A stretch of DNA of 40,142 bases, from NCBI GenBank assembly GCA_030524745.1, contig JAUNGC010000031.1, positions 1 through 40,142 on the forward strand, given 5' to 3'. Under the pieces are notes generated by a model. That model worked only from the letters and a program-made list of their open reading frames with translations. It ran no database searches and was not told the origin of the DNA. Source of the stretch: Eubacteriales bacterium (lineage in GTDB: Bacteria > Bacillota > Clostridia > Lachnospirales > Lachnospiraceae). The position numbers were made by a program, and so were the translations under genes. Shown here piece by piece: positions 16,005 through 30,792 of this stretch (within the stretch, counting starts at the first letter, position 1; every line of letters starts with the position of its first letter).

Positions 16005-16047
16005 TGGGCAAATGGTTGGGGAACTGGCTGTTTGCCCACGCTTTTTT
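16005..16047 (+). terminator. Rho-independent terminator of the starch operon
   Basis: An 8-bp stem TGGGCAAA (16005-16012) pairs with TTTGCCCA (16031-16038) around an 18-base G-rich loop. A T6 run follows at 16042-16047. It separates the carbohydrate operon from the channel/tubulin operon. Confidence 0.8.
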
Positions 16048-16068: not shown

Positions 16069-16097
16069 TTAACAAGATATAAAAGATGTGTTAAAAT
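16069..16097 (+). promoter_or_regulatory. Sigma-A promoter of the channel/VWA/tubulin operon
   Basis: TTAACA (16069-16074), a 17-base spacer and TAAAAT (16092-16097) with an extended TG at 16089-16090. Five of six bases match consensus in each hexamer, with ideal spacing. The transcript would start near 16104 and leave a leader of about 25 bases before the ATG at 16129. No clear operator is seen, suggesting fairly constitutive expression. Confidence 0.75.
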
Positions 16098-16128
16098 TAA
16101 ATAAATATACATATGATGGGGGAAACAT

Positions 16129-18225
16129 ATGAAAAAGAAGATAAAAGAGGCTATCAGTCTGCAAATCGCTAAAAACCCGGGAAGGGTGGTTCTGGCAGTG
16201 ATTCTGGTGATGAATATCCTCTTTTTTGTTGCCGCCGCGGGCGTGATTTACTCTTTATCGCCGCCGACTCTGAAGGATACGGGATTTGGGGCCGCTGTTT
16301 TTTATACGATCACGATGGTGCTGGATGCGGGCTGCATTTCCTTCATCATTGAGGATGTGGGACAGACCAGCGTTGCGGTCATCATTTTCTGCCTGATCGT
16401 AGTCATTCTCGGCATGGTAATTTTTACCGGCGCCGTGATCGGTTATCTGACCAACTACATTTCCGCATTTATCGAACACGCCAATGAAGGAGAGAAACGT
16501 CTCTACCTGACCAATCATACGGTTATTTTGAACTGGAATTCCCGGGCTTCGGAGATTGTGAACGACCTGCTTTACAGTGAAAATGCGGAAAAGGTCGTTG
16601 TGCTGGTAAATGACAACCGGGATAAGGTAGAAAAGGAAATTACCGACAGAATTCTGGATACGCTTGCGCGGGAAAAACGGGAAAAGAAGGAAGCCCGCAG
16701 CGAACTCAAAGGAATGAAGAGATTTGTGCAGTGGATCCGGGACAGGAGGCCGCAGCGGCTGACGGTTATTGTCAGAGAGGGAGAAACCTTTTCCAGCAAA
16801 CAGCTTGACGACATATCTCTGTACAGCGCAAAAGCGGTCATCATTCTCGGAAGGGACATCGCCAATTCCGTGTGCAGATTCAATCAGCAGGAGCGGATCG
16901 ACAAGTATGAAAACGGAAATGCGGAAACGATCAAGACTCTGGTGCAGGTGGCGGAAATTACGGGCGCGCAGGACTCTGCCGACAATCAGAGGATTATCGT
17001 GGAGGTGGAGGACGACTGGACGCTGGGGCTGGTGAACAAGATCATCGAGCACAAAGAGAATGCAGGAAAATGCAATATCATTCCGGTGGCGGTGAACCGG
17101 ATTCTGGGGCAGATCCTTTCCCAGTTCTCCATCATGCCGGAACTGAATCTGGTTTACAGCATTTTGTTTTCCAATAAGGGAGCGGCTTTTTACTCAATGA
17201 AGCAGCCGATTCCGGCGGATGTGAACCGTTATATGGAGCAGTACCTGAGCACGCATAAAAAAGCAATTCCGCTTGCCTTCATGGATGGGAAAGACGGAGA
17301 ACAGTGCTTTTATATGGCCGGCAGTCAGGAAGCGCTGACGGAGGAGAACGAGGTCCGCGCCGGAAAAGAACTGCAGGTGGATTTAAACGAAGATTACTGG
17401 ATTGAAAAGAAAAATGTGATCATTCTGGGGCATAACAGCAAAAGTCATTTTATTATGGAGGGCTTCAACGCATTCTGCAGCGAATGGAATTATAAAGACG
17501 GCCGTGAGATCATGGATATCATCGTGATCGATGATGCGGAAAATCTTAAGAAGCAGGATTATTACCGGAAATATTCCCAGGTCAGTCAGGTGATCGAAGC
17601 GGATATTTATGAGAAAGAAAAAATTACCGATGCGATTAACCGCTTTGTGGCCAGCAAGGAAGAGGACACCAGCATTCTGGTCCTGTCAGACGACCGCGTG
17701 GCGGCGGATGAACTGGACGCCAATGCGCTGATCTATCTGATTTATGTGCAGGATATCATCCGGACCAGGATGAAAGAAGACGCGTCCTTTGAAAAAGGAA
17801 GCATTGATGTCATTGTGGAGATCATCAATCCCAAGAATTATGATGTGGTGCGCAGTTACAGCGTGGACAATGTGGTGATCAGCAATCGTTATGTCAGCAA
17901 AATGATGACGCAGATTGCGGAAAAAGAAGCGCTGTTTGATTTTTACAACGATATTCTGACCTATGATGAAGACTGTGAAAACGGGTATGAAAGCAAAGAG
18001 ATTTATGCAAAAAATGTGAGCAGCTTTTTCAAACGGATTCCCAGAATATCAACTGCCGCCGAACTGATCCGGGCGGTTTACGCCGCCACGCCCGAGGATA
18101 ACAAGGCGATTGTAATCGGATATGTGACATCCGGCGGAAAAATCGTTTTATTCGACTCAAATCAGGAAAAAACTTATGTGCAGCTTGGGAGTCAGGACAA
18201 GCTGCTGGTGTTCAGTAATCATTGA
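16129..18225 (+). CDS. CASTOR/POLLUX-like ion channel with RCK-like domains
   Basis: A 698-residue membrane protein. TM1 spans about 18-42 and TM2 about 80-108. Between them lies a pore segment with LDAGCIS (65-71), in the position of the ADxGNHA filter of plant CASTOR and POLLUX cation channels. The cytoplasmic part has a first RCK/Rossmann-like domain from about 128 (TNHTVILNWNSRASEIV) and a second from about 420 (NVIILGHNSKSHFIMEGF). A C-terminal part ends in a TrkA_C-like beta segment. Plant members are cation channels of the nuclear envelope; bacterial members are largely unstudied. Ion selectivity and ligand cannot be inferred here. It is the first gene after the promoter at 16069, uses a GGGGGA ribosome site, and lies 14 bases before the VWA gene. 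Confidence 0.82.
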   Translation: MKKKIKEAISLQIAKNPGRVVLAVILVMNILFFVAAAGVIYSLSPPTLKDTGFGAAVFYTITMVLDAGCISFIIEDVGQTSVAVIIFCLIVVILGMVIFTGAVIGYLTNYISAFIEHANEGEKRLYLTNHTVILNWNSRASEIVNDLLYSENAEKVVVLVNDNRDKVEKEITDRILDTLAREKREKKEARSELKGMKRFVQWIRDRRPQRLTVIVREGETFSSKQLDDISLYSAKAVIILGRDIANSVCRFNQQERIDKYENGNAETIKTLVQVAEITGAQDSADNQRIIVEVEDDWTLGLVNKIIEHKENAGKCNIIPVAVNRILGQILSQFSIMPELNLVYSILFSNKGAAFYSMKQPIPADVNRYMEQYLSTHKKAIPLAFMDGKDGEQCFYMAGSQEALTEENEVRAGKELQVDLNEDYWIEKKNVIILGHNSKSHFIMEGFNAFCSEWNYKDGREIMDIIVIDDAENLKKQDYYRKYSQVSQVIEADIYEKEKITDAINRFVASKEEDTSILVLSDDRVAADELDANALIYLIYVQDIIRTRMKEDASFEKGSIDVIVEIINPKNYDVVRSYSVDNVVISNRYVSKMMTQIAEKEALFDFYNDILTYDEDCENGYESKEIYAKNVSSFFKRIPRISTAAELIRAVYAATPEDNKAIVIGYVTSGGKIVLFDSNQEKTYVQLGSQDKLLVFSNH

Positions 18226-18239
18226 GCGGGGAAATGCGT

Positions 18240-20825
18240 ATGAGAAAATTGGCAGGAAGGAAAGAAAAAAAGACGTGCCGCAGAGCCGCGTTGTTGCTGC
18301 TGGCGATCGCCATGGCAGCAGGGGTTTTTGCACAGAGCCGGATGGTATCTGCAGCGGCTGTCAAATATACAAGCAGGCGGGCGATCGCGCTCGTGTTTGA
18401 TAATTCCGGATCCATGTATCAGAACACGGCATGGTGTCAGGCAATTTATGCCATGGAAGTATTCGCTTCCATGGCGAACGAGGGGGATGAACTCCGCATT
18501 TTTCCGATGCATGATATTGAGGTGAACGGAAAGAAATATACCAGTTCGTCTCCGCTGACCGTACAGGGCGGCAGGGATGTATCCGAAATCAGGCAGATTT
18601 ATACGCCTTCTGCCGGCGGAACGCCGATCGAAACGATTACGGATGCTTATAATAGTCTGAAAAGCATGGATGCGGATGAAAAATGGCTGATCGTTTTGAC
18701 GGACGGAGAAGAATTCGACGGTATGAACCATGAGCAGACCGGCGAACGTCTCACCGGCCTTTTAAGCCAGTATAATCAGTCCGTAAATCTGATGTATCTG
18801 GGGATCGGGCGGAATGCAGCCAGTCCTGTAATAGAAGGCAGTTTTCAGAACAAAGTTGTCATTACGAACAACACGGCGGATGTGCTCAACGGACTGACGG
18901 AGATGTGCAATACCATTTACGGACGGGATCAGTTGCCGATCGATGGAAATACGCTCGCTTTTGATCTGTCCATGAATAAGCTGATTCTGTTCGTGCAGGG
19001 AAGCGATATTCAGAACCTGCAGTTGACGGATGCTTCCGGCAATGCGGCGGGAACGCTGACAAACGTCTATGCCCCTTCTTATAGTGAGACAGGATGCGGA
19101 AATACCGGCGCTTATTATGCGAAAATGGCATCCGATACCAGCCTGAGCGGTGTGATCGCAACCTATGAGGACGTTCCGGCAGGAAACTATATCATGCAGT
19201 ACGACGGTTCTGCGAGCAGCATCGGCGTATATTATGAGCCGAATGTGAGCATCAGCGCATTTTTGGTAAACGAAGCGGGGATCAACGTCATGGAACTGGG
19301 AGATGAGGTTTATCCGGGCACCTATCAGTTGCGGTACGGGTTGGTGGATGAGAACGGAGAACTCACGGATTCGCCGCTGTTAGGAGACAGACAGTTTGTG
19401 ATTACCTATTCGGTTAACGGCGCAGAGCAGACCGAGACCATGAACGAGAACGGCTCCATTCCCATTGATGTACAGGAAGGGGATCAGGTTGAGGCGAATG
19501 TGGAGGCAACATATCTGAGCGGATATTATGTATCCGCCCAGACAAGGGCTGACTGGCCGTTTCCGATCGAAATTAAGGCGACTCCGGTTTATGACCTGAC
19601 CGGAACCCTTTCCGGAGGACAGGACGTCTATTCCCTGGAAGAAGTGGAAAACATGGGAGTATACCGGGTGGAACTGGCTTATGACAAAACCGCACTGACA
19701 GGAGAAGAACTGTCAAAAGTCGTGCTGGATGTTTCCTTTAACCGGGAGGGCGGCCCGGATTATACATATGAAATTGCGGAAGATAAAAAGTCAATTTTAT
19801 TGTATCTGAAATATCCGGGAAATGATCCGACGGGACTGGAAGCGCAAAAGTATGTGATGTCTGTGGGCGCTTCTTATATCGATGAGTTTGATAAGAGTAT
19901 CAGCGCGCCGGTCGGGGATGTGGCGTTTGAAATAGCGGCATATCGATATGCGCTTCGGGCGGAGATTGAGGCGAAGTCCTATTATGAAATTGCAAAGCTG
20001 CAGACTGCGGATCCTATCGCGGTGAAGCTGACCCATGACGGAGAAAATCTGACGGTTGGGGAAATGGAAAGAGTTCGTTTGGATCTGGACGCGGGGGGAC
20101 TGGAATATACGACGGAAACGGACGCGGAAAATTCACAGATTCTGGTGCGCCTGCAGGCGGATCAATCGGATGCAGGGACCTATAAGCTGATTGCGAATGT
20201 ATCCGGTTACGATCAGATCGGGCAGGAGGTCAGCGCGCAGGACAGTAAATCCATCGAACTGCAGAATTATCCGCTCTGGCTGAGAATACTGATCGCGGTG
20301 CTGTTAATCGCGCTGATTCTGGCTCTGATCTGGTTCATTTTAAACCAGAAGGTTCTGCCCAAAAAGATCACCGTCTATAAAACTTCCTTCAGCGTGGATG
20401 GGACGGAAGTGACGGGCAATGCCCAGCTTACGAATTATACGGGCGGGAAAAAGAGGTCCGGGCTGACGATCACGGCGCCGAAATGCCCCTTTAATCCGCT
20501 GGCCAAATGCGGAATGAGTCTGGATCTGGAAGCGGACAGTCCCAGAAAGGTCAGGAGCAGAGACCGCGTCGCAATGGTGAAGTCGGTCCGCATCAATAAC
20601 GGACAGAACGTGCTCAGTTATAAAATCGGCGCGGCCAGCTTCGTGAAGGATGAAGAGACCGGAAAGTTTAAGAAGAGCGGGACCCGCACAAAGAAGGAAG
20701 GGGACAACGCGCTGCTGAATATTCGTCTGAGCAACAACGGCAAGTGCACGATTTCAGGAGAAATCAACGACGGCACCGGAAACGGCACGCCGATGAATTT
20801 TTCAGTATCGCTCAGATTTTATTAA
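18240..20825 (+). CDS. Exported von Willebrand A domain protein with one C-terminal TM
   Basis: An 861-residue protein with a signal peptide (about 1-38). The VWA domain has a complete metal site: D54-N-S-G-S58, T128 (GGTPIE) and D155 (LTDGEE). Several beta-rich, Ig-like segments follow, up to about 675. One TM lies at about 680-702, and a cytoplasmic beta-rich tail of about 155 residues contains TAPKCPFNPLAKCGM. The VWA should therefore face outside and bind a protein ligand through a metal ion, while the tail can contact cytoplasmic partners such as the tubulin-like protein. I chose the ATG at 18240 because GGGG ends eight bases upstream. ATG at 18234 is too close to it, and TTG at 18222 overlaps the channel gene. 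The TM topology is predicted by eye. Confidence 0.82.
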   Translation: MRKLAGRKEKKTCRRAALLLLAIAMAAGVFAQSRMVSAAAVKYTSRRAIALVFDNSGSMYQNTAWCQAIYAMEVFASMANEGDELRIFPMHDIEVNGKKYTSSSPLTVQGGRDVSEIRQIYTPSAGGTPIETITDAYNSLKSMDADEKWLIVLTDGEEFDGMNHEQTGERLTGLLSQYNQSVNLMYLGIGRNAASPVIEGSFQNKVVITNNTADVLNGLTEMCNTIYGRDQLPIDGNTLAFDLSMNKLILFVQGSDIQNLQLTDASGNAAGTLTNVYAPSYSETGCGNTGAYYAKMASDTSLSGVIATYEDVPAGNYIMQYDGSASSIGVYYEPNVSISAFLVNEAGINVMELGDEVYPGTYQLRYGLVDENGELTDSPLLGDRQFVITYSVNGAEQTETMNENGSIPIDVQEGDQVEANVEATYLSGYYVSAQTRADWPFPIEIKATPVYDLTGTLSGGQDVYSLEEVENMGVYRVELAYDKTALTGEELSKVVLDVSFNREGGPDYTYEIAEDKKSILLYLKYPGNDPTGLEAQKYVMSVGASYIDEFDKSISAPVGDVAFEIAAYRYALRAEIEAKSYYEIAKLQTADPIAVKLTHDGENLTVGEMERVRLDLDAGGLEYTTETDAENSQILVRLQADQSDAGTYKLIANVSGYDQIGQEVSAQDSKSIELQNYPLWLRILIAVLLIALILALIWFILNQKVLPKKITVYKTSFSVDGTEVTGNAQLTNYTGGKKRSGLTITAPKCPFNPLAKCGMSLDLEADSPRKVRSRDRVAMVKSVRINNGQNVLSYKIGAASFVKDEETGKFKKSGTRTKKEGDNALLNIRLSNNGKCTISGEINDGTGNGTPMNFSVSLRFY

Positions 20826-20874
20826 GAAGTAACAGACAGAGGTATCGCATATAAAAATACAGGAGGATGAAAGC

Positions 20875-23800
20875 ATGAAGAAAGAAAACATCAAGCCCAA
20901 CGAAGTCGGTGCGCCTACGCTCTTTATCGGCGTCGGGGGAACGGGATCTGAGATCGTAAGAAGAGTGGCCGAAATGTGCCGGCCGGAGGAGACGGAGAAT
21001 ATCAATTTTGTTTGCCTTGACACGAATGTGAACGATCTGCTGACGGTCCAGAAGAGCAAAGCGCATATTTACTATGTGCAGACTTCCAATACGCAGACGG
21101 TAGGGGACTATCTGGACTATGACGATGATGCGAGAAGGCAGTGGTTTCCGAAAAATGCGGTTATGTATGATAAGACCGTATCGGAAGGCGCAGGCCAGGT
21201 GCGCGCCATTTCCCGCCTGGCATTGAACGCCACCATTAAGACGGGAAATATCAATCCTCTGTATGCGGCGATCGACGATCTGTTCCGGAAAAACGGCAAG
21301 GATATGAAGCAGGCTCTGCGCGTGGTGATCGCTTCCACCGCTTCCGGCGGTACCGGGTCCGGTATTATTTTGCCGTTATCCATGTTTGTCCGCGATTATG
21401 TGAAAAATAAATATCCCAATACTTCTCTGATCGTGCGTTCCCTGATTATGCTGCCGGAAACGCTGGACAGCGTCATCAGTTCCACGCAGGAAAGGGAGAG
21501 CCAGAGAAGGAACGCTTATGCGACCATTAAGGAAATCAACGCTTTCATGATGAAGGGATCCGGATTTTTTGATATTGATGAAGACTTGAAGCGGTATAAC
21601 GGACTGCATGTGGATTTCACCATGCCCGGCGAAGAGAAGAAAACGCTGGCGCTGCTGCCGATGGATTTCTGCTTTTTGATGGACGGGCAGGATTCTGAGG
21701 ATTCCACCATGATCAGCCTGACGCAGTATAAGAAGCAGGCGGCCCAGGCGCTGTATGAGCAGAATATCGGACCGATGCAGAGAAAAGCGTTCTCCGTGGA
21801 AGACAATATCATCAAAGAAATGTCCAATCCCGGAAATATGGGACGCAACCGCTTCGGCGGCATCGGGTCCAGCATCATCCGCTATCCTTATGAGCAGTTG
21901 GCGGATTACGTGGCTTACGGATGGGCGATCGACAACATCGGCGGCGAGCAGGAAGCCGGCAAGTGGGGACGCTATGATAAAGCATATGAAACGAAGAAGG
22001 CGGAGGCGAGAAAGAAGGGGCTGTCCGCTTCTGAAGGACCGAAACTGAGCGAAGTATATATCAGTACCTTAAACGCTTCCCAGGACAGCTTTTCCAAGGA
22101 TATCCGGGCGAAGTTTCTGACCGGCGCCAACAAGTCTGTCAGCAGCTTCTTCACTGCTTTGCAGAAGCATATGCATGAGAGCGTGGCGGACCATCCCATG
22201 ATTAAAAATACGTCCGGTCTGGCGAACGCGGTGGCGGAAGAAGTGGATTATAAGGACGAGAATAACCGCGGAATGGCAAGGGAAAATCTGGGGTATTTAA
22301 GAGATTATGAGGCCGCCGTGAAAATGAACGCAGCAAAGGCTGCCGACAGCGAAGCGGACGCGATTTTTGACAATGAGACAAAGACGATCAACGAGAAAAA
22401 AGCCTATACAATCGAGGCTCTGTTAAAGAATTCCTACGATGAAATCGCGCATCCGGTTGCAGCCAGATATATGCTGTATCTGGCCAAAAACGAATTTGAG
22501 AAGCGCGTCCGCACGACGCAGACAAAGCTGGAAGAAACGATTGACGGGCTGAACGAATATTCTTCAGAGGCAAATAACGCGGCGAAATTTGACGCAAAGT
22601 ACAGCCGTAAAAAGCGGGAGGTGAGCCTGGACGATCTGTGCGACGCGGAAAAGAATCAGGGACAGAATCCGAATCTTCTGGAGAAGATCGGGGGATATGA
22701 AAAGATTTATCCGTTGCTGAATGAATATTTTCCGGATTACTTTTCCCTGATCCGGGAGTATGGCGAACTGACCGCGGAATTGACCGCTTATAAGAAGGGC
22801 TTTGCATTCCTGGATGAGATCTGCACGATGTACGAGAAGTTTTTTGCAAGTTTCCCGGATAAGGTTTCCTCTCTGTTAAAGAGAAGAGACGATCTTGTGG
22901 ATGAGGTGAAGTTTGAAAAGGGCGATTCTGTTCTGAACATCTGCGCGAGCAGGGAGATCATGGATGAGATGACCCGCGCCACTTCCGCGCAGAGCGCGGA
23001 CGGCTCCATGCTGGACAATGAATTAAACGGCGCCATTTACGACGCGGTTAAGGCGAACGTGGCCTTTGAACGTGAAATCCGCAATGCGGATGTGGTGGAA
23101 GAAGATAAGAGAATTGATATCTTTGACGATATCGTGCTGGGATATTTCAGAAGAAGCGTCAGAAGCAAATGCGAGAATCTGGACGTCAATGTGGTGGAAG
23201 CGCTGGCTTTGGAATACAGGCTGATGGCCCGCATCAAGACCAGAGAGGAACAGGGCGAGAACGAGCAGGTTGTCGACCGCGTATCCAGCGCGGACAGTCT
23301 CCGCCACATCAAGGATGTGATCGCCATGGGCGAACGACTGGCGGCTCCCGGCATCCAGAGAATCCGCAATGAAGAGCCCAGAGAAGTCAAGTGCGTCGCT
23401 TATAACCGTTCTCTGGACAGCATGCGCAACTACCGCATGAGCGAGATGTTTGCCCAGGGCGTAGGAGCGGAACCCTGCGATACCATATGCAAGTATGAGA
23501 TGCACTTCTTCAACGCGCTGTATAACCTGACGCCGGATAAACTCAATAAGTTCGCTTCCCCGGCGGTATCGGAAACCCGTGTGAAGAACGCAGGACTTTA
23601 CCATAATGCCTATATGGCTTATGCGAAAAATCTCGGCCCGGATTCCACCAAGAACATGATGATTTCCACTCATATCGATAAGAGATGGGATTCCATCGCA
23701 TCCATGCCGGAGATGGATTTTGCCTTCATGAATAAGCAGATGATGAAAATTCATCAGTCTCTGATTTATGCGCTGGTATACGGCGCGATTGCGCAGCGGA

Positions 23801-24426
23801 ATCTGTCCGTTGCGGCCGGCGGCAAGAAAGTATACCGCTACGAAAACTCCAGCGAGAAAACGCAGGATCTGATCGTATCCAACGGAACTTTGTGCGACGA
23901 GTTTTATGAAATTCTGGATTCCCTCTACATCGACGCCTCCGTGGTGGAGGATATCAAGGTGATCCGGCAGCGCAAAATGGAACGGGATCTGGTCCGCAAC
24001 TCCAACTATGTGGACACCAGCTTTGCGAGCGCGCTGGAACAGTTTGAGATTAAGAGCGTCCATGAAGGCAGGGCGAGCCTGTTTGAAATTCCGCTGGCTT
24101 ATTACAACAGTCTGCCCAACAGCCAGCGCTTTTCGAGCGAAATTGCAGGACTGGTGGATGCGGTCATTCAGACCTTTGACGACGAACTGGAAATTTTTGA
24201 AAATAAGGACGATGCGAAGTTCATTCTGTGCGATATTTTGAAAGAGCAGTTTGAACTGCTGATGGATAATTATGAGAAGTATCCCGAATTGAAATGTAAG
24301 AGGGCGGCTTCCGATAATGTTGTGATCGATACGATCTACCGCAAGATCAAACATGTCATCAGCGAAACGCCGGAACCGGACGACTATTGCAGTTTACTGG
24401 AGAATATGAAGGCGTTGATCAAGTGA
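20875..24426 (+). CDS. Tubulin/FtsZ-like GTPase with long C-terminal region
   Basis: An 1183-residue cytoplasmic protein. The N-terminal domain has the tubulin-superfamily nucleotide pocket: GVGGTGSE (19-26), FVCLDTN (45-51, T3-like strand end), GAGQVRAISR (106-115) and the tubulin signature loop SGGTGSG (157-163). The later RRNAYATIKEI matches the conserved Asn-helix region. This is the pattern of the Tubulin_2 family rather than true FtsZ. I do not see a clear catalytic T7 loop. Beyond about 370 the sequence is long, charged and mostly helical, with no recognised domain. It starts behind AGGAGGATG, 49 bases after the VWA gene. It may form filaments or a GTP-dependent scaffold under the membrane. 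It is about three times the usual length of FtsZ. Confidence 0.82.
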   Translation: MKKENIKPNEVGAPTLFIGVGGTGSEIVRRVAEMCRPEETENINFVCLDTNVNDLLTVQKSKAHIYYVQTSNTQTVGDYLDYDDDARRQWFPKNAVMYDKTVSEGAGQVRAISRLALNATIKTGNINPLYAAIDDLFRKNGKDMKQALRVVIASTASGGTGSGIILPLSMFVRDYVKNKYPNTSLIVRSLIMLPETLDSVISSTQERESQRRNAYATIKEINAFMMKGSGFFDIDEDLKRYNGLHVDFTMPGEEKKTLALLPMDFCFLMDGQDSEDSTMISLTQYKKQAAQALYEQNIGPMQRKAFSVEDNIIKEMSNPGNMGRNRFGGIGSSIIRYPYEQLADYVAYGWAIDNIGGEQEAGKWGRYDKAYETKKAEARKKGLSASEGPKLSEVYISTLNASQDSFSKDIRAKFLTGANKSVSSFFTALQKHMHESVADHPMIKNTSGLANAVAEEVDYKDENNRGMARENLGYLRDYEAAVKMNAAKAADSEADAIFDNETKTINEKKAYTIEALLKNSYDEIAHPVAARYMLYLAKNEFEKRVRTTQTKLEETIDGLNEYSSEANNAAKFDAKYSRKKREVSLDDLCDAEKNQGQNPNLLEKIGGYEKIYPLLNEYFPDYFSLIREYGELTAELTAYKKGFAFLDEICTMYEKFFASFPDKVSSLLKRRDDLVDEVKFEKGDSVLNICASREIMDEMTRATSAQSADGSMLDNELNGAIYDAVKANVAFEREIRNADVVEEDKRIDIFDDIVLGYFRRSVRSKCENLDVNVVEALALEYRLMARIKTREEQGENEQVVDRVSSADSLRHIKDVIAMGERLAAPGIQRIRNEEPREVKCVAYNRSLDSMRNYRMSEMFAQGVGAEPCDTICKYEMHFFNALYNLTPDKLNKFASPAVSETRVKNAGLYHNAYMAYAKNLGPDSTKNMMISTHIDKRWDSIASMPEMDFAFMNKQMMKIHQSLIYALVYGAIAQRNLSVAAGGKKVYRYENSSEKTQDLIVSNGTLCDEFYEILDSLYIDASVVEDIKVIRQRKMERDLVRNSNYVDTSFASALEQFEIKSVHEGRASLFEIPLAYYNSLPNSQRFSSEIAGLVDAVIQTFDDELEIFENKDDAKFILCDILKEQFELLMDNYEKYPELKCKRAASDNVVIDTIYRKIKHVISETPEPDDYCSLLENMKALIK

Positions 24427-24462
24427 TTTGATTCCGCGAAAGAGAGTCGGAAAAAATAGAAC

Positions 24463-24468
24463 GGAGGT
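24463..24468 (+). promoter_or_regulatory. Ribosome site that decides a TTG start
   Basis: GGAGGT(G) (24463-24468/9) lies about seven bases before TTG at 24476. The frame is open back to 24428, but starts there lack a ribosome site and the translation reads as non-conserved basic sequence covering the ribosome site itself. Confidence 0.65.
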
Positions 24469-24475
24469 GTGCGGT

Positions 24476-26518
24476 TTGTATACTGTAATTATTACAGAAC
24501 AGGAACATATTGACAATATTCGAGAATATGGCCTGTTTTTAGAACCGTTCATGAAAAAGACTCAGTTTACTCCCTGTCTGTGGAATCCGGAGGAACAAAA
24601 CAGCCTGAAGGAGTCGGTTCCGAATCTGGACGAGACCGTCGCTCACCTGCAGGAGTGGAGGGCGGTCATCATCTGCGACGAGGCGGGACTGAACAAAAAA
24701 AATCCCTTTAACCTCGTGGAGTATAAGGAACCTGTGTGGGAAGGAGAAGAAAAGGAATCTCTGGAAGCATATTACGCCAGAAGGCTGGAAGCAAAAAAGG
24801 CTGCTTACCGGGAAGCCGCAAAGCAGCCTCTGACCAGACTGGTGACCAGACTTTGCGAGGACCCTACCGTCACGGCGCGGGGGGATCAGAATACGGATCC
24901 GAATTCATTGGGGTTTCTGACGGAGGATCTTGCGGATAAACTCAAAGCTACCACCCGGGAAGATCTGGAATTTCGGGAATACCGGGAATGCGCCCGATAT
25001 AAGAAAAAACTGCGGGATGAAATCCGGGGCAGTGAACCGATGGTTTCCTCCTATCCAAAGGAAATTATCTGCATTGCCAGACGGCATCATGACGATATGG
25101 ATTATGAACTGCAATGTATCTGGTCGGAACACGATGAACGGGAATATACCAGATTTTATGACTGGAATCTGTATTTTGATAAGATGCGTTATCTGGTTCT
25201 GGATGTGGATGATAAGGACAGGCAAAGTTATGCTTACGATTATATCCGCTTTCTGTTGAGCGTGACGCTGATTGCGGGAAACGAAGCGCCGGCCGGCTGT
25301 CTGCAGCCAAACCGGGTCTATCAGTTATGCAGTGTGACCGACGAGGATAATATGACGGAATTGCTGGGCCGGTATGATGCGAAGCTGACGGCGACCAAAG
25401 ACGCTATACAGGCGAAGATCAGCGCTATCCGGACGAAACCGGTAGAACGGCTGTCAGATGACGCGGCGGAGAAAATTTTCTGCGCCAATATCACGATACC
25501 GGTCAATATGAATCAGAATTATGACAGAGAGGAACTTTTCTGCCGGGAAAAGGTCGGACTGGCAAAAGACAGCCCTGTGGACGATGAAGAAAAGATCTGG
25601 ACCAGCAGTTGCCTGCATAACCGGAAAGCGTTGAAAAAGCTGCTAAAACAGCCGAAAAGAGCCATCAAAAAAGCGACCGATGATTTCCACAAGATGGATG
25701 TGCTGGAAGAGGAGCGGGCTGCGCTGCTGAATGAATTTCAGGTGGAGGACGTCCGGGAACATATTGACCAGGAAGAATTGCGCATGGTGGATACCCATAC
25801 CGGAAACATCTATGAGGCGGATCAATATTACAAAGAACTGGAAAAGGGATATCAAAAGGTCCTCTCCATGATCGACCAGCGTATGAGAAAGAAGACGACG
25901 CTTCTTTTGGGAGCGGCGGTATTGGGAAGTATTCTGATCGGGATGATTCCCGCCTTTTTCATGAACCGGGCAGATTCGGATACGCTTTATCAGACGGTGA
26001 TACTGGCGGTCGTTGCGTTGGGCCTGGTGGCTCTGTGCGCATTTATCTGCCTGTTGGGGCTGCGAAACAGATTGCGGGAAGAGATATCCGACTATAATGG
26101 GACCGTGGGGACGATCGTAAGAGAAGTGGAGGATTGTACCGGTCAATATTCTGTTTATTTAAGTCATGCCTGCAATATTATGAGGGGGAATTCTGTTCTT
26201 TCCTATCATAAGAATCATCAGAATGGCGCCGCCCGTCAGATCATGATTTTGAAAAAGCACGCGGCGGATATGGAAGAGCGCCAGGCGGTTTTGCGGGATA
26301 TTTTCGGCAGATTTTTAAGACGGAGCGAGATGATTCACAAATACGAGGAGGCGCCCTATGACTATGATTTTACCCGCGCTGTGGATTATCAGTATCCGCT
26401 TCCTGCGACGCCTCATCTGAGAATGCAGATTGAGTTTCTGGAAAGAGGCAATTACATAGAAATTCCATATGGGATTGTGAAAAAGATGGAATTGAGAAGG
26501 GAGGAATTGTATGACTGA
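24476..26518 (+). CDS. Unrecognised two-TM protein of the tubulin-like operon
   Basis: A 680-residue protein that I do not recognise. Residues 1 to about 470 are soluble, charged and helix-rich, including FYDWNLYFDKMRYLVLD and a basic stretch KALKKLLKQPKRAIKKA. Two TM helices follow (about 475-497 and 505-527) with only a short connection, then about 150 residues ending in MELRREELYD. Both large parts must be on the same side of the membrane; the lack of a signal peptide and the basic flanks favour the cytoplasm. It could therefore tether the tubulin-like protein encoded 49 bases upstream. No catalytic motif is visible. Translation starts at TTG. The end overlaps the next gene by eight bases, so the two are coupled. 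Confidence 0.8.
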   Translation: MYTVIITEQEHIDNIREYGLFLEPFMKKTQFTPCLWNPEEQNSLKESVPNLDETVAHLQEWRAVIICDEAGLNKKNPFNLVEYKEPVWEGEEKESLEAYYARRLEAKKAAYREAAKQPLTRLVTRLCEDPTVTARGDQNTDPNSLGFLTEDLADKLKATTREDLEFREYRECARYKKKLRDEIRGSEPMVSSYPKEIICIARRHHDDMDYELQCIWSEHDEREYTRFYDWNLYFDKMRYLVLDVDDKDRQSYAYDYIRFLLSVTLIAGNEAPAGCLQPNRVYQLCSVTDEDNMTELLGRYDAKLTATKDAIQAKISAIRTKPVERLSDDAAEKIFCANITIPVNMNQNYDREELFCREKVGLAKDSPVDDEEKIWTSSCLHNRKALKKLLKQPKRAIKKATDDFHKMDVLEEERAALLNEFQVEDVREHIDQEELRMVDTHTGNIYEADQYYKELEKGYQKVLSMIDQRMRKKTTLLLGAAVLGSILIGMIPAFFMNRADSDTLYQTVILAVVALGLVALCAFICLLGLRNRLREEISDYNGTVGTIVREVEDCTGQYSVYLSHACNIMRGNSVLSYHKNHQNGAARQIMILKKHAADMEERQAVLRDIFGRFLRRSEMIHKYEEAPYDYDFTRAVDYQYPLPATPHLRMQIEFLERGNYIEIPYGIVKKMELRREELYD

Positions 26519-29500
26519 AGCGCTTCAGTATATGAGACAATGCCTTCCCGGGCTGCTTCCCTTTATTGCGCTGGTATTTTTGTCAATAAAGGTGAATTTA
26601 AAGAGGGAGTATCGCAGCAGACAGCTTTTGATGCCGATCGTGGCCCTGATTTACGGCATTTTCGTGCTTGTTGTCATGGTGGGGTTCAATAACCAGGTCC
26701 TGGGGATGATAGAGGTCTTTGCGCAGCGGCTGACGGAGGCGGAGAATTCCCTGCCCGCCCTTTCCGGCAGAGGGGAACAACTGCAGGCGTATCTGGACGG
26801 CGCGGATCTTGTGCTGCTGCTGTTCTATGTGGAGAATACGGCTTTCCTGGTGATTTTTCTTATTTTAAAGGGAATCTCGATCGGCTTTATGCGGGCGTTT
26901 TGTAAACCGGACGGAAGCCTCATGGAAGCGATTCTGTATCCTTTTTATGAAACGGACCGGGAAACCCATATGGTTTACCTGCGTAAAGAGTGCTGTCAGG
27001 CCCGGATCTATCTGAGGACGATGTATATTGCCACAGTGTCCGTGCTGTCCCTGCTTGCCCTCTTTTCCTGCTGGCTGTACCATATCGGTACGCTGCAGAC
27101 GCCCTTTTATCCGGCTTTTGCGGTGATCGTGGTGGGAGAATTGTATTTTGCGCTGGGCGGTATGACCAGACAGGAAGCGGGGAGCGATCTGGAAGGCGAG
27201 GAAGACAGCGCCAGACATATGGCGAATTATTCGCTGATGAAGGATGTGCTCCGCAAATTATTCCCGGATAAGCTGAGCGCGGAGAGCACGACGGTAAAGA
27301 GCATTGCCGGGAATTATAAAACCAATAAAGAAGTGCTGGCGGAACTGGAAGACAATGAAAAGACCATGGTTGAGGCTTATGGACGTTTTTTAAGACATAA
27401 GCTGTCGGAGGGCATGGAACTGGATCACAGCTATGTGAATGCGGGAAAAGAACTGCTGGAAGGAAACAGCGTTCTGTTTCATAATCCATTTTATTATGAT
27501 TTGATTCCGTATCTGTTTTATCCGATGAACCGTCAGTTGCTGAATCATAAAAAAATTCTTCTCGTGCTGGGGCGTCATGGAGTGGAAGAAGGAATCGAAT
27601 CCTGGTGCAGGGAAGGACTCGCCGCGGTCAATCATACGCCGTCCTTATGGAAGATCGGTGTGCTGGGAGGCGAGAGCCGGGATCTGGATGTGGGCATACT
27701 CACCCGGTCCATGGTGCATGATCTTGCGCTTCATGAAGCCAACGCCGGATTTTTAACGGAAGTCGGCATGATGATTCTTCTGGAACCTTCCCGGCTGATG
27801 ACCACGGCGCAGATCGGTCTGAACTCTTTGGTCCGCTGGTGCAGCACAGCCGGGGGCAGACCTGTGTTTGTTTCGATTGACAGAAACTGCGACGGTTTGC
27901 TGGATGCGCTTTCTCACGTGCTGATGACCAGTCTGGTGGAGGTTTCGGCGACGAATCACCATATGGGAAGATCTACTTATATGTGCTGGGACGGCGACAG
28001 CGACCATATGCAGCACCGCATGCTGCCCAATTTGTCCCGGTATCTGGGGTTTGGCACCGAATTATCGATGGCGGCGCTGAAAAATCAGATTGAGAGTACG
28101 AACTGGTATGGCGGCGAAGCCTTTCCGGTCGTCGATGTGGGCTGGGTTGCCGGACAGTATTATTATGATCTGATGAATTATGCGTCGCTTCCGGCCACGC
28201 AGGAAGCCCTTGAGGCGAAATTCCGTGTGACGCCGGAATTGTGGAACGCCAGAAAAGAGCGGCAGCTTTATCTTACCGTTGAGGATGAATTCTGCAACCT
28301 TTTTGAAATTAAGCGGAATTTTGCGACCAGAGCGGTCAAAGAAGGCTTTATCAACATCATTTCTCCGGAGTATTTGCTCAAGGATTATATGACGGAAAAT
28401 GAAAGCATCTTCAATGCGGACCCGAAGGCGATTCCCGGTCTGGTCGCCGACTATGCGCATACGGCGCGCAACGTCGTATTGCGTCTGTGCCTGCGCATGA
28501 GCGTAGGACCGGTATGGGAAAGCGAACTGGAACGGGAACTTTTGCTCATCGACGCCCCTGTTGTGAATCTTGCGGAAAGCCTGTGGCATGAAATCTGCAG
28601 AACCAGCAGACCGGCCGCGCCAGGCGATAATTCTGCGGACGATATTTTGAATCTTTCCGGGAACGGACGAATGAAATCTTTTACAAAGGACGTCGTTCGC
28701 AGCAGAAGAAAATTCAATATACATACCGGAAAAATGGAATCCTGTTTTTACATCGATGATCCGGGCTTTATTCATTTGTATGTGGATACCTTAAAGAGCG
28801 CGGAATATATCGCGGAGGACGAGCAGGGGAACCGCCAGTATCTGGGAAGCGAAATTTTAGGACAGATCTTTCAGAAGCATCTGCCCGGTCAGTTTATGAC
28901 CATTGCGGGGAAGCATTACGAGATGCTTCGCGTCAGTTCGGACAGCAAAGTGATATTGAGACGTGCGGCCGATCACATTACGGGACGTCCTCGTTACAGA
29001 CAGGTGCGCAATTACAGGCTGGAGAATCTGACGGAGTCCGGGCGGATGGGAGATATCCGCAGTATGGACGGACTGCAGATCGCCGTGTGTTATGCGGATA
29101 TTTCCGTGCAGACGCCCGCTTACTGGAAAATGGACCGTTATAACGATTTTGCAAAAGCGCAGAAAATGACGGTGAACGGCATTCCGGAGCGCACCTATTG
29201 TAATAAGAAAGTTTTAAAGATCAGCTTTGACGGCGGCGAAGAGCCGGTAACGCCGCAGATATGCCGGACGATAACCAATCTGATGAACGAGGTTTTCGTC
29301 ACGCTGTTTGCGGAGAATCAGTGTTATATCGCGGCCCTGATGCCGGGAGAGCAGGAAATTCCCATCACCTATCATCTTGAGGGCGGAAAAAACTGCGAAA
29401 TCGGCGGAAACAGCATCTATATCGTGGAAGACAGCCAATTGGACATCGGTCTGATCGAAGCCGTACAAAGAAACCTGGACCGGATTTTTGCAATTCTCTG

Positions 29501-30662
29501 CGACTACCTGGAATGGCATACACAGGCGGTGGAGCAAAGCAAGAACCCGCCGCCGGAGCCGGTCAGACAGCCGGTGGAACTGCCTGCGGAAGAAAAGAAA
29601 GAGGGGATGTTGAAGCGATTTATCGGGAAAATCAAAAAACTTTTTGGGAAAAAGCCCTTGGAAGAAACAGGACAGCCTGAAGAAACAGGACAGCCCGAAG
29701 AAACAAATCAGCCTGAAGTTGATGTGCGCGGAGCGGAGTCGCCGAAAGAAACGAATATGGAATTTGATCCGGCTGTTGCAACGCGCGTGAACGCATGCCG
29801 CATTCCCGTCAGAAGGCCTTATCATGAGAAATTTTATTTGCTGTATGGACAGGAAGAAGTGCCTGACGGCATTGCCGTCGCCGAGACGTTGCATTTCCTG
29901 AAAAAGCGGGGATATGACAACAGCGAATTGAAGCAGGCGAGGGAAGGAAAGGCGCTGTCGAAACAAATGGAAGAAGAATTCGTTCCGAATCAGGATGGAA
30001 AGCATTACTGCGATTTTTGCGGAGTGGAACTGGTCGGCACGGAATATGAAATTCTGGACGACGGCAGGGAACGCTGCATGAACTGCAGTTTTACGGCGGT
30101 TAAGACGGAAAAGGAATTTGTGGAATTATACGAAAACGTATTGGATACGATGCAATCCTGTTTCGGAATAAAAATCAACGTGCCGATCACCGTGAAAATG
30201 GTAAATTCCAGAAAACTGCACAAAGCGCTGGGAAAGACTTTTGTTCCTACGGGCAAGGCGGACGGAAGAATTTTGGGGGTTGCCATTTCTGACCGGAGCG
30301 GATACTCGATGTTGTTGGAGAACGGGGCGCCCAGAATCAGTTCCATGATGACAATGGCGCATGAACTGACCCATATCTGGCAGTATTTGAACTGGGACCG
30401 GAAAGAGATCTGCAGAAAATACGGCAAACATAATGAAACGTTGATCTATGAAGGAATGGCCAAATGGGCGGAAATCCAGTATACTTATCTGATTAACGAG
30501 GCCGTTTTTGCCAAACGGGAGGAAATCATAACGCGGCTGCGCGAGGACGAATATGGAAAGGGATTTCGGATTTATGAGTCCCAGTATCCTTTGACGGAGG
30601 GCACCGTGTTGAAACAGGAGACGCCTTTTATGCACAAAGAGGACCCCATTGAAGTTTCATAA
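26511..30662 (+). CDS. Giant multi-TM protein with zinc-finger/DA1-like metallopeptidase end
   Basis: A 1383-residue protein. About five TM helices occupy residues 12-216. Residues about 300-560 have the spacing of a superfamily 2 helicase core but without working motifs: NPFYYD (324-329) at the P-loop position, LLEPSRLM (423-430) for DEAH, VSATN (478-482) for motif III. Residues about 780-840 (LPGQFMTIAGKHYE and on) resemble the C-terminal module of some helicases. A Glu/Pro/Gln repeat linker (about 1051-1068) follows. The C-terminus has one four-Cys zinc finger (C1167, C1170, C1189, C1192) and a peptidase-like HELTH (1284-1288) with a further E1314 in YEGMAKW. Finger plus HELTHxW plus EGxAxW fits the LIM-peptidase DA1 family. 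The gene overlaps the previous one by eight bases and ends the operon. The helicase comparison is tentative. Confidence 0.78.
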   Translation: MTEALQYMRQCLPGLLPFIALVFLSIKVNLKREYRSRQLLMPIVALIYGIFVLVVMVGFNNQVLGMIEVFAQRLTEAENSLPALSGRGEQLQAYLDGADLVLLLFYVENTAFLVIFLILKGISIGFMRAFCKPDGSLMEAILYPFYETDRETHMVYLRKECCQARIYLRTMYIATVSVLSLLALFSCWLYHIGTLQTPFYPAFAVIVVGELYFALGGMTRQEAGSDLEGEEDSARHMANYSLMKDVLRKLFPDKLSAESTTVKSIAGNYKTNKEVLAELEDNEKTMVEAYGRFLRHKLSEGMELDHSYVNAGKELLEGNSVLFHNPFYYDLIPYLFYPMNRQLLNHKKILLVLGRHGVEEGIESWCREGLAAVNHTPSLWKIGVLGGESRDLDVGILTRSMVHDLALHEANAGFLTEVGMMILLEPSRLMTTAQIGLNSLVRWCSTAGGRPVFVSIDRNCDGLLDALSHVLMTSLVEVSATNHHMGRSTYMCWDGDSDHMQHRMLPNLSRYLGFGTELSMAALKNQIESTNWYGGEAFPVVDVGWVAGQYYYDLMNYASLPATQEALEAKFRVTPELWNARKERQLYLTVEDEFCNLFEIKRNFATRAVKEGFINIISPEYLLKDYMTENESIFNADPKAIPGLVADYAHTARNVVLRLCLRMSVGPVWESELERELLLIDAPVVNLAESLWHEICRTSRPAAPGDNSADDILNLSGNGRMKSFTKDVVRSRRKFNIHTGKMESCFYIDDPGFIHLYVDTLKSAEYIAEDEQGNRQYLGSEILGQIFQKHLPGQFMTIAGKHYEMLRVSSDSKVILRRAADHITGRPRYRQVRNYRLENLTESGRMGDIRSMDGLQIAVCYADISVQTPAYWKMDRYNDFAKAQKMTVNGIPERTYCNKKVLKISFDGGEEPVTPQICRTITNLMNEVFVTLFAENQCYIAALMPGEQEIPITYHLEGGKNCEIGGNSIYIVEDSQLDIGLIEAVQRNLDRIFAILCDYLEWHTQAVEQSKNPPPEPVRQPVELPAEEKKEGMLKRFIGKIKKLFGKKPLEETGQPEETGQPEETNQPEVDVRGAESPKETNMEFDPAVATRVNACRIPVRRPYHEKFYLLYGQEEVPDGIAVAETLHFLKKRGYDNSELKQAREGKALSKQMEEEFVPNQDGKHYCDFCGVELVGTEYEILDDGRERCMNCSFTAVKTEKEFVELYENVLDTMQSCFGIKINVPITVKMVNSRKLHKALGKTFVPTGKADGRILGVAISDRSGYSMLLENGAPRISSMMTMAHELTHIWQYLNWDRKEICRKYGKHNETLIYEGMAKWAEIQYTYLINEAVFAKREEIITRLREDEYGKGFRIYESQYPLTEGTVLKQETPFMHKEDPIEVS
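29661..29714 (+). repeat. Three 18-base in-frame tandem repeats
   Basis: Three near-identical 18-base units encode Glu-Glu-Thr-(Gly/Asn)-Gln-Pro each. They lie between the helicase-like part and the zinc finger and most likely form a flexible linker whose length can vary by slippage. Confidence 0.9.
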
Positions 30663-30672
30663 ATTTTGCGGC

Positions 30673-30714
30673 AAAAGGACACTTTTTTGGCGGATGCCGG
30701 GAGAGTGTCTTTTT
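30673..30714 (+). terminator. Rho-independent terminator of the channel/VWA/tubulin operon
   Basis: An 11-bp stem with one G-U pair joins 30673-30683 to 30704-30714. The loop contains a further small GGC/GCC stem. The right arm ends in T5, so the hairpin and U-tract coincide. It begins 11 bases after the stop codon of the last operon gene. Confidence 0.8.
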
Positions 30715-30792
30715 CTGAGGGGAAAAATGTATCCGGTGGCTTCCGGTCATAAATTGCAATCCTATGTCTTTACTCATGAATTGTAAAAACTG

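Follow-up and report, generated by a model that had tools for sequence, protein, structure and literature searches.

The window analyzed here is a 40,142-bp stretch (positions 1 to 40,142, forward strand) of contig JAUNGC010000031.1 from the Eubacteriales bacterium assembly GCA_030524745.1, a member of the Lachnospiraceae. It carries a unit of five genes that encode a CASTOR-like ion channel, a VWA protein, a tubulin-like GTPase (TUB) and two further proteins referred to as P4 and P5. A GH43 gene precedes the unit and an RsmF gene follows it. ORF (open reading frame) calling gave five frames, all on the plus strand, spanning positions 16129-30662 of the window (raw ORFs 16129-18225, 18222-20825, 20875-24426, 24428-26518 and 26511-30662). 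The VWA start was set at the ATG at 18240, in an ORF open from 18222, and the P4 start codon at 24476 was accepted because aligned P4 relatives begin there. Given these two starts, the intergenic gaps are 14, 49, 49 and -8 bases, as the original prediction of five co-directional genes had it. The features of the locus are as follows.

16005..16038, plus strand: terminator-like hairpin behind the preceding GH43 gene, with a 15-pair stem and a T run
16069..16097, plus strand: promoter-like site of the five-gene unit (TTAACA, spacer of 17, TAAAAT; 10/12 consensus, TG before the -10)
16129..18225, plus strand: CASTOR/DMI1-like ion channel with RCK-type gating-ring domains and putative filter aspartate D66 in a DAG motif (profile against PDB)
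18240..20825, plus strand: VWA protein with a complete metal ion-dependent adhesion site (MIDAS), an N-terminal hydrophobic stretch, one C-terminal membrane segment and a cytoplasmic tail
20875..24426, plus strand: TUB, a tubulin/FtsZ-like GTPase (Tubulin_2, FtsZ-like-1 type; PF13809)
24476..26518, plus strand: P4, with an N-terminal alpha/beta domain, long helices and a hairpin of two transmembrane (TM) segments (predicted model)
26511..30662, plus strand: P5, with N-terminal membrane segments, an MrfA/YprA-fold pseudohelicase, a zinc ribbon and a metallopeptidase (predicted structure and hydropathy of relatives)
27183..29525, plus strand: predicted P5 pseudohelicase core, residues ~225-1005
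29808..30659, plus strand: P5 tail, putative zinc ribbon and HExxH metallopeptidase, residues 1100-1383
~30669..30717, plus strand: terminator hairpin of the five-gene unit (-28 kcal/mol)

The terminator expected after the last gene is borne out by the hairpin at its end, whose z score against shuffled sequences is -6.4. A terminator scan did not list it, perhaps because only loops of 3-8 are admitted there. The single promoter is less secure. A site does exist at the proposed position, but the region contains 15 promoter-like sites against a shuffle mean of 17.1, and the site is therefore suggestive only.

Conservation of a four-gene core

The VWA, tubulin-like, P4 and P5 genes are a real conserved unit. 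A profile built from six tubulin-like sequences was scanned over genome contigs and recovered 165 relatives, of which the best 80 were kept. Judging from record titles, most of the 80 records are metagenome-assembled Clostridia and the rest are Microbacteriaceae and related Actinobacteria. Among these best 80 of 165, identity to the tubulin-like protein of the window ranges from 82% down to 29% over the best segment. All 80 loci have a VWA gene immediately before the tubulin-like gene; in none is the order VWA-TUB-P4-P5 broken, and the core genes are always on one strand. P4 is present in 73/80 loci and P5 in 70/80. Contig ends account for nearly all of the absences: the sequence stops no more than 2 bases from the tubulin-like gene in six of the seven loci that have no P4, and no more than 108 bases from the last core gene in nine of the ten that have no P5. 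The sole exception is locus L085, in which 3.6 kb follow the tubulin-like gene with neither P4 nor P5. The median gaps across loci are 29.5 bases for VWA-TUB, 34 for TUB-P4 and -8 for P4-P5. Pairwise distances of five core gene pairs (all but VWA-P4) correlate at r 0.75-0.91, and none of 2000 permutations reached values as high.

Several loci have interrupted genes. The tubulin-like gene of L085 is split into two ORFs, possibly through decay or misassembly. In the actinobacterial loci L107, L108 and L112 the VWA gene appears as several ORFs, as does P4 in L107 and L112 and P5 in L112; these may reflect frameshifts in the records or decay.

The original prediction had read the five genes as one system and held that the idea would fail if they were rarely neighbors in related genomes. 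The four core families are neighbors in fixed order, L085 excepted, and their distances co-vary, and to this extent the idea stands. It does not extend equally to the channel, which is usually absent from the flank: only 13 of the 80 loci have a channel gene within the fetched flank, always on the strand of the core, and in 11 of these it is within 600 bases of the core.

Features of the encoded proteins

The tubulin-like protein matches PF13809 (Tubulin_2) with an E-value of 1.1e-52, in agreement with its earlier description as a tubulin-type GTPase, and it is the one match to the tubulin-like query in the window genome. A GGTGSG-type loop (GGTG[ST]G) occurs in 77/77 tubulin-like sequences, and a GxGGTG-type first loop in 40/77. 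The metal site proposed for the VWA protein was confirmed: its MIDAS residues (D60, S62, S64, T134 and D161) are complete in all 72 aligned sequences, the window's included. Hydrophobic ends were seen in the window sequence and counted in relatives by hydropathy; the N-terminal stretch is read as an export signal and the C-terminal one as a membrane anchor.

P4 and P5 look like membrane proteins, judging from hydropathy and, for P4, from its model. Single-sequence searches of Pfam, NCBIfam and PADLOC returned nothing usable for either, and their profiles matched PDB sequences only in low-complexity or chance-like fashion (best E 3.1e-4, in a stretch of P5). The P4 model has a pLDDT (predicted local distance difference test) of 86.1 and a pTM (predicted template modeling score) of 0.65. 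Compared with PDB, it gave no match at E <= 0.001, and a known fold was not found.

For the core of P5, structure prediction gives the fold of the DNA helicase MrfA (YprA/DUF1998) without its ATPase motifs, that is, a pseudohelicase. The predicted structure of the core aligns with MrfA across most of the length of the latter, and it is on this that the link rests, because hhalign failed to recover it: compared with seven single ORFs, the P5 core gave a best probability of 10%, to a non-YprA ORF, and 1.5%, not significant, to a YprA-type helicase ORF. At motifs I and II, a P-loop is found in 1/71 P5 sequences and DExH/D in 0/71, with EPS in its place in 69/71; the motor ATPase motif is thus absent from 70 of the 71. 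The cysteines of the MZB zinc site are likewise mostly gone, since only 8/71 sequences have any CxxC-type pair in P5 700-1010, and PF09369 had no match in the window. P5 had originally been described as a multi-TM protein ending in a zinc-finger metallopeptidase. The hydrophobic segments, HExxH and CxxC pairs are all there, but the helicase-like fold, which makes up most of the protein, had been overlooked.

The tail of the window P5 contains two CxxC pairs and HELTH. Tails were surveyed in 86 loci, made up of the 80 above, L013-L016, L030 and the window; L030 and L042 come from the same genome, which is therefore counted twice. The peptidase is fused to P5 in 47/86 loci and encoded by a separate ORF after P5 in 21/86; it is absent from one and could not be assessed in 17, which were cut or, like L085, have no P5. 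It is thus fused or in the next ORF in 68/69 assessable loci, a pattern that we read from the ORF arrangement as one of gene fusion and fission. The only assessable locus without it is L016, from G208, a genome of the window's genus. Of 68 ORFs picked up by the tail profile, 67 have HExxH; among fused tails, 45/46 have CxxC..CxxC together with HExxH..EG. From these motifs, the tail is called a zinc-ribbon metallopeptidase of unnamed family. Its earlier label, DA1-like, was not upheld: PF12315 is unmatched by the window P5 up to E 1, by six P5 proteins up to E 0.1 and by the window at E 0.01, and it is not among the families listed (25 of 46) for 23 tails. The tail does have a zinc finger followed by HExxH..E, as in DA1 peptidases, a pattern that is common to other gluzincins. 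Weak matches to PF19527, PF20573 and PF04450 each occur in 21/23 tails and lie below curated cut-offs in the window protein. The absence of DA1-like folds from the VIA list is uninformative because most VIA rows do not reach the tail, which is barely covered.

The first gene of the unit, earlier described as a two-TM channel with RCK-like domains, resembles the CASTOR type by profile. A profile of 13 sequences matches DMI1 (E 5.4e-7) and CASTOR (E 1.2e-6 and 1.5e-6) in PDB through similarity in the gating ring, and the bacterial CASTOR set can be regarded as relatives of the plant channels; the PDB matches here are chains of 538-554 residues. DAG is kept in 28/28 aligned channel sequences and a TVGYG-like motif is found in 0/28; DAG is equated with the plant AD(S/A)G filter by motif, not by alignment to a solved pore. 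Neutralizing the filter aspartate (D265) is reported to abolish plant channel activity (PMC6697748). The position of the plant Ca(II)-site glutamate (E493 in CASTOR) is occupied by Ala353 in the window and by Glu in 13/28 sequences, which speaks against a simple transfer of the plant function.

In the samples taken, the full-length channel occurs only together with the core. Among 200 genomes sampled from the family, full-length CASTOR relatives occur in three, all of them among the four genomes with a P5 core (hypergeometric 3e-6, with genomes taken as independent), and in none of the 196 without the system; two further genomes have short, weak matches to the N-terminal pore region only. In a sample of 398 genomes from the phylum, where the core was defined by a strong tubulin-like match (2/398, the window genome and G300) and P5 was not searched, the full-length channel was found in the window genome only, with short weak matches in six others and no full-length relative in the 396 genomes without a strong tubulin-like match. 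Its position is variable: the gene lies 87 bp upstream of VWA in G124 and ~2.5 kb downstream of P5 in G154, and it is on the strand of the core in 15/15 nearby cases. Among 50 genomes checked from the 67 loci without a channel in the flank, 15 have a full-length channel elsewhere (one in two pieces), 4 have short matches only and 31 have none. Taken together, the CASTOR-like channel is taken as an exchangeable partner and not as a part of the core.

Distribution, genomic site and other partners

Within the window's family the core is uncommon. Strong tubulin-like matches were found in 4/200 genomes of the family sample, the window's included; five further matches in this sample are weak and come from loci in which no relative of P4 or P5 was seen. 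By record titles, named culturable carriers are Humibacter albus, Leucobacter salsicius, Naasia aerilata, Pseudolysinimonas kribbensis and Pseudoflavonifractor sp. An44. Within the genus, only G208 among 12 congeners has a tubulin-like match (29% identity), which belongs to a divergent core copy on a contig other than that of its RsmF gene. At the site of the five-gene unit, G208 and G209 instead carry a single different gene, of 565-576 aa, between GH43 and RsmF (L161:6470-8200 in G208, L158:7654-9351 in G209). This suggests that, in the window lineage, the five-gene unit arrived or replaced another gene as a block. A plain empty site was not found in the congener stretches examined (G200 and G207 left out); in the other eight, a GH43 match does not fall within the stretch, and some end near RsmF.

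Another Tubulin_2 lineage is present in the same family. At L018:10078-12609, in genome G180, a shorter Tubulin_2 protein of 843 aa is encoded between the genes for RF3 and a clostripain-type protease, with a HerA-like gene beyond. Relatives of VWA, P4 and P5 were not found in its surroundings.

Clustering of flank ORFs revealed a second accessory family of ~600 aa with several predicted membrane segments, possibly channel-like, in 18 loci (among them L094:21852-23636, L052:5960-7762 and L040:5494-7299); in 16 of the 18 it shares the strand of the system. A profile of 12 aligned sequences matches ryanodine-receptor (RyR) repeat domains in PDB (best E 8.2e-14), with the domain C-terminal. Profile comparison showed no relation of this RyR-type family to CASTOR, to which it may be an alternative. 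TIR proteins are encoded near the system in six loci (L067:4493-6145, L048:3132-4781, L084:22412-23527 and three more), and the one scanned, from L067, combines BspA-type leucine-rich repeats with TIR_2 and a match to ThsB-TIR. Another recurrent protein, small (~155 aa) and lipoprotein-like, is encoded downstream of P5 in six loci (L102:16981-17502, L043:14947-15411, L037:11290-11757 and three more); the one scanned had no Pfam match. Since downstream flanks are short, all partner counts are lower bounds.

A location in defense islands was considered and found no support. At E 1e-10, a sample of 120 out of 391 flank ORFs gave matches to 6 PADLOC defense models, one member each, and 120 out of 172 control ORFs gave matches to 21, the control set being small, of mixed origin and inclusive of other Tubulin_2 loci. 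Applied to the five window proteins at E 0.1, PADLOC returned nothing but one weak match to BrxB in P5 (E 0.042). The plasmid records searched contained no full-length relative. One record filed under phages, L192 (MT836542.1, 1-9794), is an unverified and unannotated 9.8-kb "Bacteriophage sp." clone from human feces. It encodes a relative of the tubulin-like protein (84% of the query aligned, at 29% identity), and the contig may be bacterial and misfiled.

Possible functions and relation to described systems

The reading that we favor, tentatively and at somewhat less than an even chance, is that the locus encodes one membrane-bound machine by which a surface event leads to controlled proteolysis; ion flux would be an additional output that can be exchanged. 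The VWA protein would bind a ligand outside the cell, and its cytoplasmic tail together with P4 would recruit the tubulin-like GTPase, whose GTP-dependent assembly would gather P4 and P5 into membrane clusters. P5 would contribute its dead helicase body as a regulated platform for binding nucleic acid, nucleotide or protein, which would set the peptidase free or in place. If a CASTOR-like or RyR-domain protein is also encoded, that protein would read the same state and pass ions. We thus infer a coupling of ligand, filament, ion flux and proteolysis. Several observations count against this proposal. The channel is missing from many core genomes (31/50 with none and 4/50 with short weak matches; G021 and G300 lack it too), and its distances track those of the core poorly (r 0.18-0.27). 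Its output therefore cannot be essential. In addition, absences are soft throughout, most records being metagenome assemblies.

The looseness of the channel could also mean that the core alone is one machine and the CASTOR gene a passenger travelling along with it. That the channel is near the core in so few loci, with weak distance correlations, would fit, as would the absence of a CASTOR match from G300, the genome of a 64% identical system. We regard this as very unlikely, considering that the full-length channel occurs in none of the 196 family and 396 phylum genomes without the system, that it is always on the same strand when nearby, that in 15 of 50 further core genomes it is found beyond the flank that was fetched, and that even its weak correlations were reached by only 24, 2 and 0 of 2000 permutations. 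A different arrangement of the same parts would be a machine for import or export of DNA or protein, with the helicase-fold protein and the peptidase as its inner part. A membrane-anchored helicase fold does lie beside a long-helix membrane protein, and the VWA protein is read as extracellular, but the motor ATPase motif is gone from nearly every P5 and no pore or pilus family was recognized in the five proteins, leaving this possibility with only a slight chance.

Membrane remodeling, in which filaments of the FtsZ-like-1 protein and its partners shape or pinch the cytoplasmic membrane while the VWA protein holds the wall or surface, was proposed for the broader family by Makarova and Koonin in 2010 (PMC2875224). 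The tubulin-like family and its pairing with VWA are those of that study, and P4 and P5 have the look of membrane proteins. Remodeling would nevertheless leave the conserved metallopeptidase, the dead DNA-helicase fold and the ion channels unexplained, and a reviewer of the same paper preferred transport or signaling (PMC2875224). Because a peptidase and channels are present, signaling is favored over remodeling, which we consider unlikely for this locus. Similarly low in probability is an immune or conflict system in which foreign nucleic acid is detected on entry by the membrane-tethered MrfA/YprA fold, GTPase assembly provides amplification, and the peptidase and exchangeable channel or TIR partners serve as effectors. 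DISARM, Dpd and Druantia all have a YprA-family protein at their center, and protection against phages is reported for ARMADA (PMC12458937). The exchangeable accessories (CASTOR, RyR-type and TIR proteins), the patchy spread and the different gene at the window site in G208 and G209 point the same way. On the other side, PADLOC found next to nothing in the five proteins, flanks showed no defense-island signal relative to controls, full-length relatives are lacking from plasmids, the one phage record is unverified, and the pseudohelicase has no ATPase motifs. A more specific version, distinctly improbable in our estimation, is a membrane alarm: the dead, membrane-tethered MrfA/YprA fold, on a scaffold of tubulin-type GTPase, would sense nucleic acid or nucleotide, free the zinc peptidase and open a divalent-selective CASTOR-type channel. 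If true, a bacterial protein related to the calcium channel of plant symbiosis would be the effector of a cytoskeletal, immune-like switch.

Whichever function applies, one FtsZ-like-1 subfamily now has a known, conserved set of component genes, and as these are found in named culturable bacteria the question can be tested directly. We take the organism known as "Bacteroides capillosus" to be now placed in Pseudoflavonifractor, a genus that carries the system here (L042). The 2010 set included a "Bacteroides capillosus" locus (PMC2875224), and the operon type may already be among the loci of that study.

The original prediction knew of no described system of this composition. Part of the composition has precedents in print: operons joining FtsZ-like-1 (FtsZl1) and membrane VWA proteins were reported in 2010, with a role that was only predicted (PMC2875224), and GTPase systems with tubulin and VWA proteins in 2020 (PMC7159879). 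The full combination was not found in print; in the open-licence literature searched, supplements excluded, this tubulin family was not seen combined with any of a YprA-fold protein, metallopeptidase or CASTOR channel, and the literature examined, as far as it was covered, reports no tested function for FtsZ-like-1 proteins. Our locus shares with the FtsZ-like-1 operons a Tubulin_2-type protein beside a VWA protein with intact MIDAS, as well as uncharacterized membrane proteins (PMC2875224). In the 2010 account the stress is on a P-loop GTPase, kinases and OmpA proteins (PMC2875224), whereas Pfam recognizes none of these in the five genes. Conversely, the portion of the 2010 text consulted has no MrfA-fold pseudohelicase, metallopeptidase or CASTOR channel, although its supplementary families A1-A2 and B1-B9 may include P4 or P5 unnamed (PMC2875224).

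The GAP1-N2 GTPase-centric conflict systems of Kaur et al. 2020 are defined by GTPase and GAP1 genes, and they share with the present system firmicute and actinobacterial neighborhoods, tubulin-domain and membrane VWA proteins and variable pore-type effectors (PMC7159879, in the portion of the article consulted). A GTPase with zinc ribbons and GAP1 had no Pfam match in the five proteins, the ten window neighbors or the P5 relatives, and the GTPase/GAP1 family is not among the recurrent neighbors (sequences, and a Pfam scan of nine). Compared with the MrfA/YprA helicases, P5 carries N-terminal hydrophobic segments and a peptidase and lacks the motif I/II residues and CxxC pairs. In the available text of the 2025 YprA survey, "tubulin", "vWA" and "transmembrane" occur 0 times and "FtsZ" once (PMC12458937); judged by these terms, the survey makes no mention of a dead YprA-type fold joined to membrane segments. 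Like plant CASTOR, POLLUX and DMI1, the channel has an RCK-type ring and an acidic DAG instead of TVGYG (PMC6697748), but unlike plant CASTOR it is bacterial, tied to a tubulin-like operon and has Ala for E493 (PMC6697748). The system is real and well conserved, and what appears to be new is the set of predicted MrfA fold, peptidase and channel that accompanies the known FtsZ-like-1/VWA pair.

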